Below, one piece after another: positions 74 to 10,352 of a stretch of DNA of 10,352 nt. The translations under genes and the position numbers were made by a program. The DNA is from Gammaproteobacteria bacterium. GTDB lineage: Bacteria; Pseudomonadota; Gammaproteobacteria; Halothiobacillales; Halothiobacillaceae. The notes under the pieces were generated by a model, which saw only the letters and a list, made by a program, of their open reading frames with translations, ran no database searches and was not told where the DNA came from. Numbering within the stretch: the first letter of the stretch is position 1; every line of letters starts with the position of its first letter. The stretch is taken from positions 1 to 10,352 of the forward strand of contig JARJMX020000017.1 in the NCBI GenBank assembly GCA_029335925.2, written 5' to 3'.

Positions 74-286
74 GCTGGGCACATCCCTGTGCCCAGCCCT
101 TCGGGGACGCTTCGCGCCCCATGGTTGGTCCAGACAACCATAGTGCTGGGCACATCCCTGTGCCCAGCCCTTCGGGGACGCTTCGCGCCCCATGGTTGTT
201 CCAGACAACCATAGTGCTGGGCACATCCCTGTGCCCAGCCCCTCGGGGACGCTTCGCGCCCCATGGTTGTTCCAGACAACCATGGT
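74..286. repeat. Three tandem copies of a 71-bp triple-hairpin unit
   Basis: Units lie at 74-144, 145-215 and 216-286 and abut exactly, with no spacer. They are nearly identical; I see only a few single-base differences, for example ttggtcc against ttgttcc and cccttcgg against cccctcgg. Each unit contains three inverted repeats in order. The first has perfect 10-bp arms GCTGGGCACA and TGTGCCCAGC around a TCCC loop. The second has GGGG, a bulged A and CGC pairing with GCG-CCCC around a TTC loop. The third is ATGGTTG pairing with CAACCAT; in the last copy it grows to perfect 10-bp arms CCATGGTTGT and ACAACCATGG. The period of 71 is not a multiple of three, which argues against a repeated protein domain. 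It resembles REP-like or other structured intergenic repeats, but I cannot assign a named family. Confidence 0.9.
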
Positions 287-326
287 GATATGTGCCGCGA
301 CGTTTTCGAAGGCCGAACCTCGTAGG

Positions 327-4072: not shown

Positions 4073-4089
4073 ATCGGATGTGTCCGATT
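4072..4089 (+). repeat. Inverted repeat over the pilin promoter start region
   Basis: Perfect 7-bp arms AATCGGA (4072-4078) and TCCGATT (4083-4089) flank TGTG. The left arm begins at the last base of the -12 element and the right arm covers the predicted start of transcription. It could be an operator or part of a weak rdgC terminator; no U-run follows, only TTAAAG. Confidence 0.5.
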
Positions 4090-4097
4090 AAAGCACC

Positions 4098-4103
4098 AGG
4101 AGG
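4098..4103 (+). promoter_or_regulatory. Strong Shine-Dalgarno sequence fixing the pilin start
   Basis: AGGAGG lies 7 bases before the ATG at 4111. This decides against the upstream in-frame ATG at 4078, which would add 11 residues, lacks a ribosome binding site and falls inside the inverted repeat. Confidence 0.85.
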
Positions 4104-4110
4104 TGGCCTG

Positions 4111-4635
4111 ATGCGTGCTCTCCGCTTCCCTCATCAGAACACCGGCTTTACTCTGGTGGAGCTGGTCGTTGTCATCGTCGTGCTAGGCATCCTTGCGTCC
4201 CTAGCCATACCTAAATACATCGAGATGAGTCGGGAGGCCAGGATCGCTGCCCTTGAGCAGCTCGCCGGGGCGGTTCAGTCCGTAGCGAACCTTGGCAATG
4301 CCAAGTGCGCCGTCTCACCCACATGCAACGTCAATGCCCGCAGCACCGACAGCCCTACCCCGCGGGCGGTAGTGGATGGTAAGAACATCGTTTTTCATTA
4401 CGGCTACCCCAATGCCTGGGACGGCTGGCCGCTGTCCGGGGCTGACGGCATTGCCTTTATGCTCGATTTGAGCGGTTTTACCGTCGATTACCGTCAGGAC
4501 GGGACGGGCTATTACCGCATCTTCAAGATGGTCAGGGCGCCCGACCCGGACCACTGTACCGTCACCTATCACCAGGTGGTTTCAGCACCAGGGATGACGC
4601 CTCCAGATGTCACCCTCGATACCTCAGGCTGCTGA
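4111..4635 (+). CDS. Type IV pilin-like protein, MSHA type
   Basis: The 174-aa prepilin has a 12-residue leader, MRALRFPHQNTG, followed by the class III signal FTLVELVVVIVVLGILASLA. A prepilin peptidase would cut after Gly12, leaving an N-terminal Phe and the conserved Glu at mature position 5. The hydrophobic stretch of about 20 residues is the only membrane segment and would form the filament core. The following IPKYIEMSREARIAALEQLAGAV resembles MshA-like pilins (PKF/Y, then AR-A-L-LAGA-). The mature protein has four cysteines: C54, C60, C137 and C162, the last being the C-terminal residue. C137-C162 could close a D-loop of the kind typical for type IV pilins, and C54-C60 a short loop; both are inferences. 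No assembly ATPase, platform or peptidase genes are nearby, so it is an orphan here. The last 12 bp overlap the 3' end of hopJ on the other strand. Exact subtype (MSHA pilin, minor pilin or pseudopilin) is uncertain. Confidence 0.88.
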   Translation: MRALRFPHQNTGFTLVELVVVIVVLGILASLAIPKYIEMSREARIAALEQLAGAVQSVANLGNAKCAVSPTCNVNARSTDSPTPRAVVDGKNIVFHYGYPNAWDGWPLSGADGIAFMLDLSGFTVDYRQDGTGYYRIFKMVRAPDPDHCTVTYHQVVSAPGMTPPDVTLDTSGC

Positions 4636-4996
4636 TCTGGACAGGCGAAAACGCAAGGGCTCGTCTTCAAAGCAGATGCCTGCCCACCCATGACGCAGAA
4701 ACAATCGGATATTCGGGTGAGCTTGCCCGTCAGGATCCTTACGCACCGCCTGATAGTGTTCGCCGAAGCAGGCCAAGGTCTGATCGACGGACAGCCCAAG
4801 GATTTGGCCAAAAGCGAACACCTTGCATGAGCCTTCATTGACGCCCGCCAGGTTATCGAGTCGATCCTCCCCAATGCCATGGCTGAATGGCCGTCGGTGT
4901 ATAGTCGAACACCGCTTCGATCAGGGCGAGGGTATCGGCAAATGGCACAAGCTCCCTGCCCTGTCGCTCCAGCAAAGCCGTGATGTGCGAGTCCAT
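4624..4996 (-). pseudogene. HopJ-family protein gene with a one-base frameshift
   Basis: The family is named after the Pseudomonas effector HopJ, but members occur in many bacteria without a type III system, so an effector role is not implied. The first frame starts at ATG 4996 and reads MDSHITALLERQ, then DTLALIEAVFDYTPTA; it then runs into a stop at 4853-4855 (47 aa). The family sequence resumes in another frame with FSHGIGEDRLDNLAGVNEGSCK, then FAFGQILGLSVDQTLACFGEHY, HPNIRLFLRHGWAGICF, and ends at TGA 4624. The 373-nt span is 3x124+1. Removing one base at about 4888 (the T complementary to an extra A between GCC and TTC) restores a continuous 123-aa protein of normal family length. GGAAG (5004-5008), inside the ilvD 3' end, is a Shine-Dalgarno sequence 7 bases from the ATG, so translation is probably coupled to ilvD. 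Sequencing error, recent inactivation or programmed shift cannot be separated here; I see no typical slippery heptamer. Confidence 0.85.
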
Positions 4997-5000
4997 GCCA

Positions 5001-6860
5001 TTACTTCCGGCACTTGAGCTGGCTGAGATCACGCACTGCCCCCCGGGCGGCAGAAGTGGTCATGGCCGCGTAGGCCTGTAGCGCAAGGCTCACCTCGCGC
5101 TCGCGGGCAGCAGGCTGCCAGGCATGAATACCCTTCGCCTCCATGGCCTCGCGGCGGCGGTGGAGTTCGTCCTCGCTCACGTCCACCTCAATGGTGCGGT
5201 TGGGGATGTCGATTATGACCAGATCACCCTCCTCCACCAGACCGATCGGACCGCCTTCGGCCGCCTCGGGCGAGACGTGTCCGATGGACAGGCCGGAGGT
5301 GCCGCCGGAGAAGCGGCCGTCGGTGATCAGCGCGCAGACCTTGCCCAGGCCCTTGGACTTCAGGTAGCTGGTAGGGTAGAGCATCTCCTGCATGCCGGGA
5401 CCGCCCTTCGGGCCCTCGTAGCGGATGATGACCACGTCACCAGGTTTGATCCGGTCGCCGAGAATGGCTTCGACGGCTTCGTCTTGGCTTTCGAAGATGC
5501 GTGCGGGGCCCTTGAACTTAAGAATCTCTTCATCCACCCCTGCGGTCTTGACGATGCAGCCATCTGGGGCGAGGTTGCCATACAACACGGCAAGTCCACC
5601 ATCCTGGCTGTAGGCGTGGGCACGGTCACGGATACAGCCGCCCGCGCGATCGAGATCGAGGTTCGGCCAGCGGGTGTCCTGGGAAAAGGGGATCTGGGTC
5701 GGGATGCCAGCGGGGCCGGCGAGGTAGCGTGTCTTCGCTGCCTCGGTGGCGGTCGGTCGGGCGATGTCCCATTGGTCTAAGGCCTCGCCAAGGGTGTTGC
5801 TGTGCACGGTGTGGCAGCCGACATGGATTAGGCCGGCGCGATCCAGCTCACCAAGAATGCCAAACACGCCGCCGGCGCGGTGCACGTCTTCCATGTGGTA
5901 TTGCTGGGTGCTCGGCGCAACCTTGCAGAGGTGCGGCACCTTGCGGCTGATGCGGTCGACATCGGCCATGCTGAACTCCACCTTGGCCTCATGGGCGGCA
6001 GCAAGCAGGTGCAGTACGGTATTGCTGGAACCCCCCATGGCAATGTCCAAAGCCATGGCGTTTTCGAAAGCCTCGAAGGTGGCAATGGAGCGCGGCAGGA
6101 CACGCTCGTCGCCCTGCTCGTAATAGCGGCGTGCCAGCTCAACGATCCGACGCCCGGCCTCAAGGAACAGCTCCTTGCGGTCCGCGTGAGTCGCCAGGAG
6201 CGAGCCGTTGCCCGGAAGGCTTAAGCCCAGCGCCTCGGTCAGACAGTTCATCGAATTGGCGGTGAACATGCCGGAACAGGAACCGCAGGTCGGGCAGGCG
6301 GAACGCTCGATTTGTTCGACGTCGGCATCGCAGATGTTCGGATCGGCAGCCGCGATTATGGCATCGACCAGGTCAAGCTTGATGCCCTTGCCCGCAAGAC
6401 GGGTCTTGCCGGCCTCCATCGGACCGCCGGAGACAAAGATTGTCGGGATATTCAGCCGCAGCGCGGCCATCAGCATGCCCGGGGTGATCTTATCGCAGTT
6501 GGAGAGGCATACCAGGGCATCCGCGCAGTGGGCGTTGACCATATACTCGACCGAGTCGGCGATCAAATCGCGGCTCGGCAGGGAATACAGCATGCCGCCG
6601 TGGCCCATAGCGATGCCGTCATCCACCGCAATGGTGTTGAATTCCTTAGCCACGCCCCCCGCCTTCTCGATCTCACGTGCCACCAACTGACCTATATCCT
6701 TAAGGTGGACGTGGCCTGGTACGAACTGGGTGAAAGAGTTGGCGATGGCGATGATTGGCTTGTCGAAATCGCCATCCTTCATACCGGTGGCGCGCCACAA
6801 GGCGCGGGCACCGGCCATGTTGCGGCCGTGGGTGGTGGTGCGGGAACGGTAGACGGGCAT
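5001..6860 (-). CDS. ilvD: Dihydroxy-acid dehydratase
   Basis: Catalyses dehydration of 2,3-dihydroxy-isovalerate and 2,3-dihydroxy-3-methylvalerate to the keto acids that give valine, leucine and isoleucine; cytoplasmic Fe-S enzyme needing Mg2+. The 619-aa product matches E. coli IlvD (616 aa) over its length. Visible motifs are [13 protein letters not shown] (78-90, Mg ligand D81), [12 protein letters not shown] (118-129, with C122, D123 and K124) and [17 protein letters not shown] (189-205, with C195). GRFSGGTSG follows at 515-523, with S518 the probable catalytic serine. In plant-type [2Fe-2S] enzymes a cysteine precedes NxH near residue 50; here the sequence is PGHVH as in E. coli, suggesting the E. 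coli-type oxygen-sensitive cluster (inference). The start at 6860 is supported by the family N-terminus ([26 protein letters not shown]) and by GAGG a few bases upstream. hopJ follows after four bases. Confidence 0.98.
5004..5008 (-). promoter_or_regulatory. Shine-Dalgarno sequence of hopJ inside ilvD
   Basis: GGAAG in the last codons of ilvD lies 7 bases upstream of the hopJ ATG at 4996. The ilvD stop (5001-5003) sits between them, the usual geometry for translational coupling. Confidence 0.6.
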
Positions 6861-7292: not shown

Positions 7293-8189
7293 TCAGGCCG
7301 CATTACGCAGCGCCTCAATTCGTTCCTCCAGCGGCGGGTGAGTCATGAACAGACGAGCCAGGCTAAAGCCCTCCTTGCCACCGCCATTGATGCCGAAAGC
7401 AGCTATCTGACTCGGCAAATGACTGGGCTCGTGCATGGCGCGCAGCTTCTCCAGCGCCGCAATCATCTTGTGACGCCCGGCCAGGCTTGCGCCCGCGGCA
7501 TCGGCACGGAACTCACGCTGACGCGAGAACCACATGACAATGATGCTGGCGAGGATCCCCAGAACCAGCTCGGCCACGATGGTGGCGACGATATAGGCGA
7601 TGCCATTGCCATCCTCATTCTTGAAGATCACGCGGTCCACAAAGTTACCGATAATGCGGGCAAAGAAGATGACGAAGGTGTTCACCACACCCTGGATTAA
7701 GGTCAGAGTGACCATGTCGCCATTGGCGATGTGGCCGATCTCATGCCCCAACACGGCCTCGGCCTCGTCGCGGTTCATGTAGTTGAGCAGGCCGGTGCTC
7801 ACCGCGACCAGTGCATTGTTGCGGCTCGGGCCGGTGGCGAAGGCGTTGATCTCGGGGGAGTCATAGATCGCGACCTCCGGCATGGCAATACCAGCCCTCT
7901 CGGCCTGACGGCGCACAGTCTCGATCAGCCACAATTCGGTGGAATTGCTCGGCTGCTCAATGACCACGGCCCCCACGCTTTGCTTGGCAATCCACTTGGA
8001 CATCAGCAGCGAGACAAAGGCACCACCAAAGCCAAAGACGGCTGCAAACACGAGTAGGCTAGCAAGGTTCAACCCACCCGGGCCGTTCATGGCGTCTAGG
8101 CCGAACACGCGGGAGATGATGCTCCACGAGAGGGTGAGTACGATCATGATCGCGATGTTGGTGGCTAGGAACAGGAAGATGCGTTTCAT
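7293..8189 (-). CDS. htpX: Membrane zinc protease HtpX
   Basis: Inner-membrane M48 metalloprotease that cleaves misfolded or damaged membrane proteins, complementing FtsH. The product is 298 aa (E. coli 293). Hydrophobic segments lie at about residues 4-24, 39-62, 160-180 and 197-220. The zinc site is HEIGH (H149, E150, H153) plus the glutamate of REFRAD (E226). Other family sequences are [15 protein letters not shown] (52-66), INAFATG (114-120), LVAVSTGLL (127-135), [20 protein letters not shown] (156-175) and [16 protein letters not shown] (280-295). The ATG at 8189 matches the usual N-terminus ([11 protein letters not shown]); AAGGA lies upstream with a rather long spacing of 11. It lies 59 bp after parC on the same strand, has its own promoter candidate, and is followed by a stable terminator hairpin. 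Confidence 0.98.
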
Positions 8190-8252: not shown

Positions 8253-10352
8253 TCATTGGAGCGTACGGTTTCCAGTCGCTCGGCCCGGTTAAAGCCGCGG
8301 GGGAGCGGACGGCCGCGCCTGGCGCGCTGGCCGACCATGCCATGCCAATCGGTTGGACTTAGGTTGAGATAGCGCCCTGCGGTATGCACGCGTAGCGTGT
8401 CGTCTTGACCAAGCAGGGTCATAGCGAGCAGCGGCTCATCCCGACCGAGGGCCATGAGCTTGCTGCCACGACCACCGCGTCCTTCTTTGAGCAGCTCTTC
8501 CAGCGGGAAGATAAGCAGATTGCCTCCGCCCAGCAGGGCCACCCAGCCATCGCCCTCGCGCACCGGTACCGGCGGCAGCAGGCGCGCTCCCTCCGGCACG
8601 GTGATCAGCGCCTTGCCCGCGCGCAGGCGGCTGTGGGCTTGCTCCAGCGGAGCGACGAAGCCGAAGGCCGCGCTGGAGGCGAACAGGTAGCGATCCTCCG
8701 CCGGGCCAAGCAGCACATAAGGCACCTGCACGCCTGCTGGAAGACTAAAGCGACCGGTGAGCGGTTCGCCATGCCCGCGCGCGGACGGTAGGGTGTGCGC
8801 AGGAAGGCTGTAAGCGCGGCCGGTGGCATCAAGGAATACCGCCAGCTGGGTACTGCGTCCCACGGCTTGGGCCTGAAAGGCATCGCCGGTGCGGTAGGCG
8901 AGGTTCGCACCGTCCACATCGTGCCCCTTGGCCAGGCGCACCCAACCCTGCTTAGAGAGCACGATGGTGACCGGCTCGCTCGGGATCAGGGCGGTTTCAT
9001 CCAGTGCCTGGGCCGCCTGGGCCTCGATGAGCGGGGCGCGGCGTGGATCACCATAGGTCTCGGCATCCGCCAACAGCTCCTCGCGCACCCTCTCCCGCAA
9101 CTTCGCTTCGTCGTCGAGCAGGTTGCGCAATCCATCGCGCTCCTTGGCCAGATCGGCCTGCTCGCCGCGCAGCTGCATCTCCTCAAGCCGCGCCAGGTGA
9201 CGCAGCCTAAGTTCAAGGATGGCCTCGGCCTGGATGTCGGAGAGCCCGAAGCGCGTCATCAAAACCGGTTTAGGCTCATCCTCGTGACGGATGATGGCAA
9301 TGACATCGTCAATATTGAGGAAAGCCATCAGCAGGCCATCGAGGATGTGCAGGCGGCGCTCAACGCGCTCCAGCCGCCACTGCACCCGGCGGCGCACCGT
9401 CTCGATGCGAAAGCGCAGCCATTCGCCGAGCAGCTCGCGCAAGCCCATGACGCGCGGACGGCCATCCAAGCCGATCACGTTCATGTTGACGCGGTAGCTG
9501 CGTTCAAGGTCCGTGGTAGCGAACAGGTGGGCCATCAGGGCCTCAATGTCCACGTTGCGGCTGCGCGGTACGATCACCAGGCGCGTCGGGTGTTCGTGGT
9601 CGGACTCATCGCGAAGATCCGTCACCAGCGGCAGCTTTTTGGCCTGCATCTGGGCGGCGATCTGCTCCAGCACCTTGCTGCCCGAGACCTGGTACGGCAG
9701 GTCAGTGATGACGATATCACCGTCCTCAACCTTGTAACGCGCGCGCTGTCGCACTGAGCCCTGGCCGCTGGCGTATATTTTCAGCAGCTCGTCGCGCGGA
9801 GTGATGATCTCCCCTGCGGTGGGGAAATCCGGTCCCGGCAGGTGCTGGCAAAGAGCCGCGGTGTCGGCGTCCGGCTGGTCGAGCAGATATACGCAGGCCT
9901 GCACCACCTCGCGCAGGTTGTGCGGTGGGATGTCGGTCGCCATGCCCACGGCAATGCCACTGGTGCCATTGAGCAATACATTCGGCACGCGGGCCGGCAG
10001 CAGCGCGGGTTCCTCCAGGGTGCCGTCAAAGTTCGGTTGGAAGTCCACCGTACCCTGTTCTAACTCGCTCAAGAGTAGGTGGGCGTAAGGGGTGAGGCGC
10101 GCCTCGGTGGAGCGCATGGCAGCGAAGGATTTGGGCTCATCCGGTGAACCCCAGTTACCCTGACCATCGATCAGGGGATAACGGGTAGAGAACGGCTGGG
10201 CCATCAGCACCATAGCCTCATAGCAGGCCGAATCGCCATGCGGATGGTACGTGCCGATCACATCCCCTACGGTACGGGCGGACTTCTTGTGCTTGGCCGC
10301 GGCCGAAAGGCCCAGCTCCGACATGGCATACACGATGCGCCGTTGCACCGGC
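8249..10352 (-). CDS. parC: DNA topoisomerase IV subunit A, partial, catalytic Tyr replaced by Ser
   Basis: Breaks and rejoins DNA as the A subunit of topoisomerase IV, which unlinks daughter chromosomes. The gene runs off the right edge; the first visible codons, [10 protein letters not shown], correspond to E. coli residues 40-49, so about 39 N-terminal residues are missing. It is ParC rather than Gyr[44 protein letters not shown] and [23 protein letters not shown] follow E. coli ParC closely. The quinolone-resistance positions are Ser80 and Glu84, the susceptible-type residues. The coiled-coil region around [17 protein letters not shown] leads to the C-terminal beta-pinwheel domain from about [17 protein letters not shown]. 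The oddity is [10 protein letters not shown] where the family has AAMRYTE. The codon at 10109-10111 reads TCC (Ser) at the exact equivalent of catalytic Tyr120, while the preceding arginine is kept. As written the protein could not form the DNA-tyrosyl bond. The rest is intact. Confidence 0.96.

Follow-up and report, generated by a model that had tools for sequence, protein, structure and literature searches.

The parC fragment and its serine codon

The window analysed here is the whole of one contig (C47; 10,352 nucleotides), one of 214 in an assembly that totals 1,644,354 bases, with a completeness of 92.47 and an estimated contamination of 0.07. The features at its parC end, all on the minus strand, are as follows.

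7293..8189, minus strand: htpX, downstream neighbour of parC (NF003965, 446.8 bits, cut-off 245), in the same order in the related locus L036
8249..10351, minus strand: parC (topoisomerase IV subunit A) fragment of 700 codons (TIGR01062, 953.2 bits, cut-off 628.9), its 5' end lost at the contig end
9450..10352, minus strand: 903-base stretch shared with contig C194 (positions 4088-4990 there), from which it differs at 73 bases, 2 of these within the outer 375
10109..10111, minus strand: codon 81 of the parC fragment, TCC, coding for Ser where the catalytic Tyr is expected; C194 and the homologues have Tyr
10250..10252, minus strand: codon 34 of the parC fragment, ACG (Thr) at the invariant Lys of the GKYHPHGD motif; Lys in C194 and in homologues

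Residue 81 of the fragment, which we take to be the equivalent of Tyr120 in E. coli ParC numbering, lies near the place where the gene is cut off, as the contig ends 241 bases past the Ser codon and parC runs off there. The frame begins at PVQRR, is open at the contig end and holds neither a stop nor a frameshift. An earlier note on this DNA reported Ser in place of the catalytic Tyr, and this reading was confirmed: the minus strand at 10109-10111 is TCC, and the column aligns with the Tyr of E. coli ParC (PDB 1zvu). The note also described all flanking motifs as conserved, which is wrong at one residue, since GKYHPHGD has become GTYHPHGD (Lys34Thr). This change, the truncation of parC at the contig end and a second contig with both Tyr and Lys had been overlooked. 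The fragment departs a third time at residue 349, where Asp replaces Glu; this change is mild and distant from the contig end.

The fragment belongs to the ParC family, as TIGR01062 scores above its curated cut-off while the gyrA models fall below theirs. Compared with Gram-negative ParC (TIGR01062; E. coli ParC, PDB 1zvu), the whole fragment aligns (query 1-694), the family score is far over the cut-off, parE is present in the genome and the usual neighbours htpX and lptG are found. It differs from these proteins at the catalytic Tyr, where it has Ser, and at the invariant Lys, where it has Thr; C194 contradicts both readings.

Conservation of Tyr and Lys among relatives

Two sets of sequences were used for the comparison. 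The ParC homologues (P0002-P0120, n=119) were the best 120 of 7997 scored, minus the window's own P0001. The parC loci of other genomes (L005-L033 and L036-L115) numbered 109, representing at most 107 distinct loci, as L036 is identical to L005 and L037 to L007. All 119 homologues from the best 120 scored had Tyr at the residue 81 column, Lys at residue 34 and Glu at residue 349. Tyr was likewise present in 109/109 loci (at most 107 distinct), and Lys in 108 of the 109, the exception being L042 with Met. Both residues occurred in all four same-genus genomes that were searched (G001-G004; L005-L008). The earlier note had proposed that relatives sharing Ser would support a real change. No Tyr loss common to relatives, or in a second sequence of the species, was found among the 119 homologues (from the best 120 of 7997), the 109 loci and C194, all of which have Tyr.

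Two of the sequences examined were unusual in themselves. L042 comes from a low-coverage contig of a Methylococcaceae MAG (CADDYU010000291.1), and its ParC reads GMYHPHGDQACYE: the invariant Lys is replaced by Met, and the Ser position of the quinolone region is occupied by Gln. In a genome of the same class (G053:C98:1443-3000), parC matches in three pieces, two of which contain in-frame stops (2 TAA; 2 TAG), and this gene looks broken or badly sequenced.

One parC locus on two contigs

A search of the genome with PF00521 gave three matches, namely gyrA on C68, the C47 fragment and, on C194, a frame left open at the end of that contig. The C194 frame carries both AAMRYTE and IGKYHPHGD, and the terminal 903 bases of C194 overlap the parC end of C47. 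The catalytic Tyr of the AAMRYTE motif, absent from C47 (TCC), is thus present in a contig covering the same locus. On C194, trhP, lptF and lptG come first and are followed by parC, which starts there with its ATG; on C47 the 3' part of parC is followed by htpX. In L036, a Halothiobacillaceae MAG with 83% ParC identity, the 3' part of trhP, lptF, lptG, parC and htpX stand in one run. The overlap and this gene order show that C194 and C47 hold a single parC locus between them, not two genes, and C194 as a second, separate parC was ruled out on the same grounds. The second copy that the earlier note had suggested was not found among the three PF00521 matches of the genome, the one on C194 being the 5' portion of the locus to which the C47 fragment belongs.

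The other subunits of the type IIA topoisomerases were also found. The gyrA gene, for which the earlier note had advised a search, is an 873-codon frame on C68 with AAMRYTE, its Tyr present. The ParC partner parE lies on C108 (TIGR01055, 999.3 bits, cut-off 723.35). A frame of 819 codons on C55 matches TIGR01055 below the cut-off (550.1 bits) and is probably gyrB. Together, gyrA, parE, the putative gyrB and parC make up an ordinary type IIA set.

Anatomy of the overlap

The differences between the two contigs are unevenly spread. Only two fall within the outermost 375 bases of C47, at window positions 10251 and 10110, and in both the coding strand has A in C194 and C in C47. Both fall on codon position 2 and alter residues that are invariant in the 119 homologues (best 120 of 7997), giving Lys34Thr and Tyr81Ser, and there is no silent difference in this outer stretch. 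The next 195 bases contain 9 differences and the last 333 contain 62, so that the inner 528 bases hold 71; over the whole overlap, 46 of the 73 fall on codon position 3. The identical runs in the overlap measure 101, 140 and 132 bases. An attempt to read the assembler word length from these runs was dropped as not decisive.

The protein alignment shows where each contig departs from the family. Residues 1-300 include 157 columns that are at least 97% conserved. Of these, the only ones at which C47 departs are 34 and 81; C194 departs solely at 218 and 251, which lie towards the end of that contig. C194 shares 99% identity with P0002 and P0003 over residues 1-125, while its residues 236-300 find their best match in P0077, from another lineage (86%), and share 83% with C47, which itself matches P0002 at 100% there. 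The resemblance of C194 (L034) to its own genus is lost at about 4600-4990, at its parC end. Judged from these alignments, this suggests that C194 is a chimeric contig or comes from a recombinant strain. For both contigs, the sequence looks trustworthy at a distance from the contig's own end and less so close to it, and a poorly resolved or chimeric junction viewed from both sides would look like this.

A-to-C is a common sequencing error. Of the possible A-to-C changes in the outer stretch, 44/68 alter a conserved residue, so chance errors of this kind would often hit one; for all possible single-base changes the figure is 550/1125. A literature search on an Illumina A-to-C error bias gave no match.

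Origin of the Ser codon

A bacterium living with a topoisomerase IV that is unable to cut DNA would be startling. The probabilities of the explanations were set by judgement and not by calculation. The Ser codon is very probably a sequence or assembly artefact near the contig end, since the normal Tyr is found in C194, which overlaps C47 and belongs to the same genome. We propose that a single parC locus was split over two overlapping contigs, with the 5' part on C194 and the 3' part on C47, and that the outermost 375 bases of C47 may have received two A-to-C discrepancies from sequencing error or from an assembly tip that was chimeric or had little support. We infer that the base calls of C47, not those of C194, are wrong. 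Real variation would be expected to bring silent changes too, and the outer 375 bases are without any. The organism would then most likely make an ordinary Tyr-bearing ParC, which cleaves and rejoins DNA through this Tyr, and its ParC is predicted from the sequence to be active. Of the two options that the earlier note had left, the base error has gained from the Tyr of C194, and the non-cleaving ParC has lost ground, as only the base call stands behind non-cleavage.

Some observations speak against an artefact. The inner overlap differs at 71/528 bases, and therefore at least two related sequences are present or C194 is chimeric; the contamination estimate of the assembly is low (0.07). C194 is also not a flawless witness, because its inner end looks chimeric, yet its outer part is still 99% identical to P0002/P0003. 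In addition, C47 has odd residues elsewhere. ParC departs from near-invariant columns at 3/263, one of them being residue 349, and the mid-contig IlvD departs at 3/380. A contig-wide error problem on C47 was tested on IlvD in this way, and odd residues are not clearly more frequent in ParC. The odd residues at ParC 349 and at three IlvD positions weaken the case for an artefact a little. The parC end stands out because C194 contradicts it and because two radical changes lie close together near the contig end.

The 71 differences in the inner 528 bases make a mixture of strains plausible, and C47 and C194 were each assembled as their own path. C47 might then come from a real minor strain with both changes, and C194 from a strain with Tyr. 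The minor strain would have a parC variant of recent origin, either deleterious or without function, or would belong to a dying lineage. We consider this unlikely. Two radical differences without any silent one in the outer 375 bases speak against it, and the C47 ParC is otherwise conserved, its frame free of stops and frameshifts and 3/263 conserved columns changed. From what is known of E. coli parC, loss of the catalytic Tyr from topoisomerase IV would be expected to be lethal or close to it.

A lasting non-cleaving ParC is far less probable still. A laboratory precedent exists in E. coli topoisomerase IV with ParC Y120F, which is reported to be catalytically inactive and yet able to trap crossovers and, with MukB, to condense DNA (PMC8934648). 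As this enzyme is not inert, a non-cleaving ParC is conceivable as a binding protein. The catalytic Tyr is replaced there, as in C47 if the base call is real, but Y120F is an engineered, purified protein with Phe, and the available part of that report claims no natural case (PMC8934648). That some strain of the population truly has a Ser ParC, whose topoisomerase IV would bind and bridge DNA but not cut it while gyrase or another enzyme decatenates, seems to us highly improbable. Nothing found in this genome points to a non-cleaving, binding ParC, and a persistent form of it is kept at a very slight chance. A fixed functional ParC without the catalytic Tyr, serving a structural role such as DNA bridging or as a condensin partner while another enzyme decatenates, could appeal to the DNA condensation and crossover trapping of Y120F (PMC8934648) and to the Tyr-bearing gyrA, but it is scarcely credible against a Tyr-bearing version of the locus in the same assembly, Tyr in all four same-genus genomes searched, and a well-conserved parE (999.3 bits, cut-off 723.35), as in an ordinary topoisomerase IV.

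The case of an artefact carries a practical lesson. When a lone catalytic residue is missing a few hundred bases from a contig end, overlapping contigs of the same genome should be checked first.

Other features of the contig

A 71-base tandem repeat lies at window positions 74-287, in 3 copies with a 97% match. Similar DNA occurs on at least 7 other contigs of the genome, and in three of these (C98, C118, C214) it stands right at the start of the contig; from this distribution the repeat is an interspersed one, and it probably breaks the assembly. An Rfam search of the window gave no match. The ilvD gene (5001-6860) departs from near-invariant IlvD columns at residues 119, 168 and 391. Between rdgC and ilvD, at 4078-4635, a pilin-like protein is encoded that has a prepilin cleavage motif (TIGR02532, 27.8 bits, cut-off 16.3).
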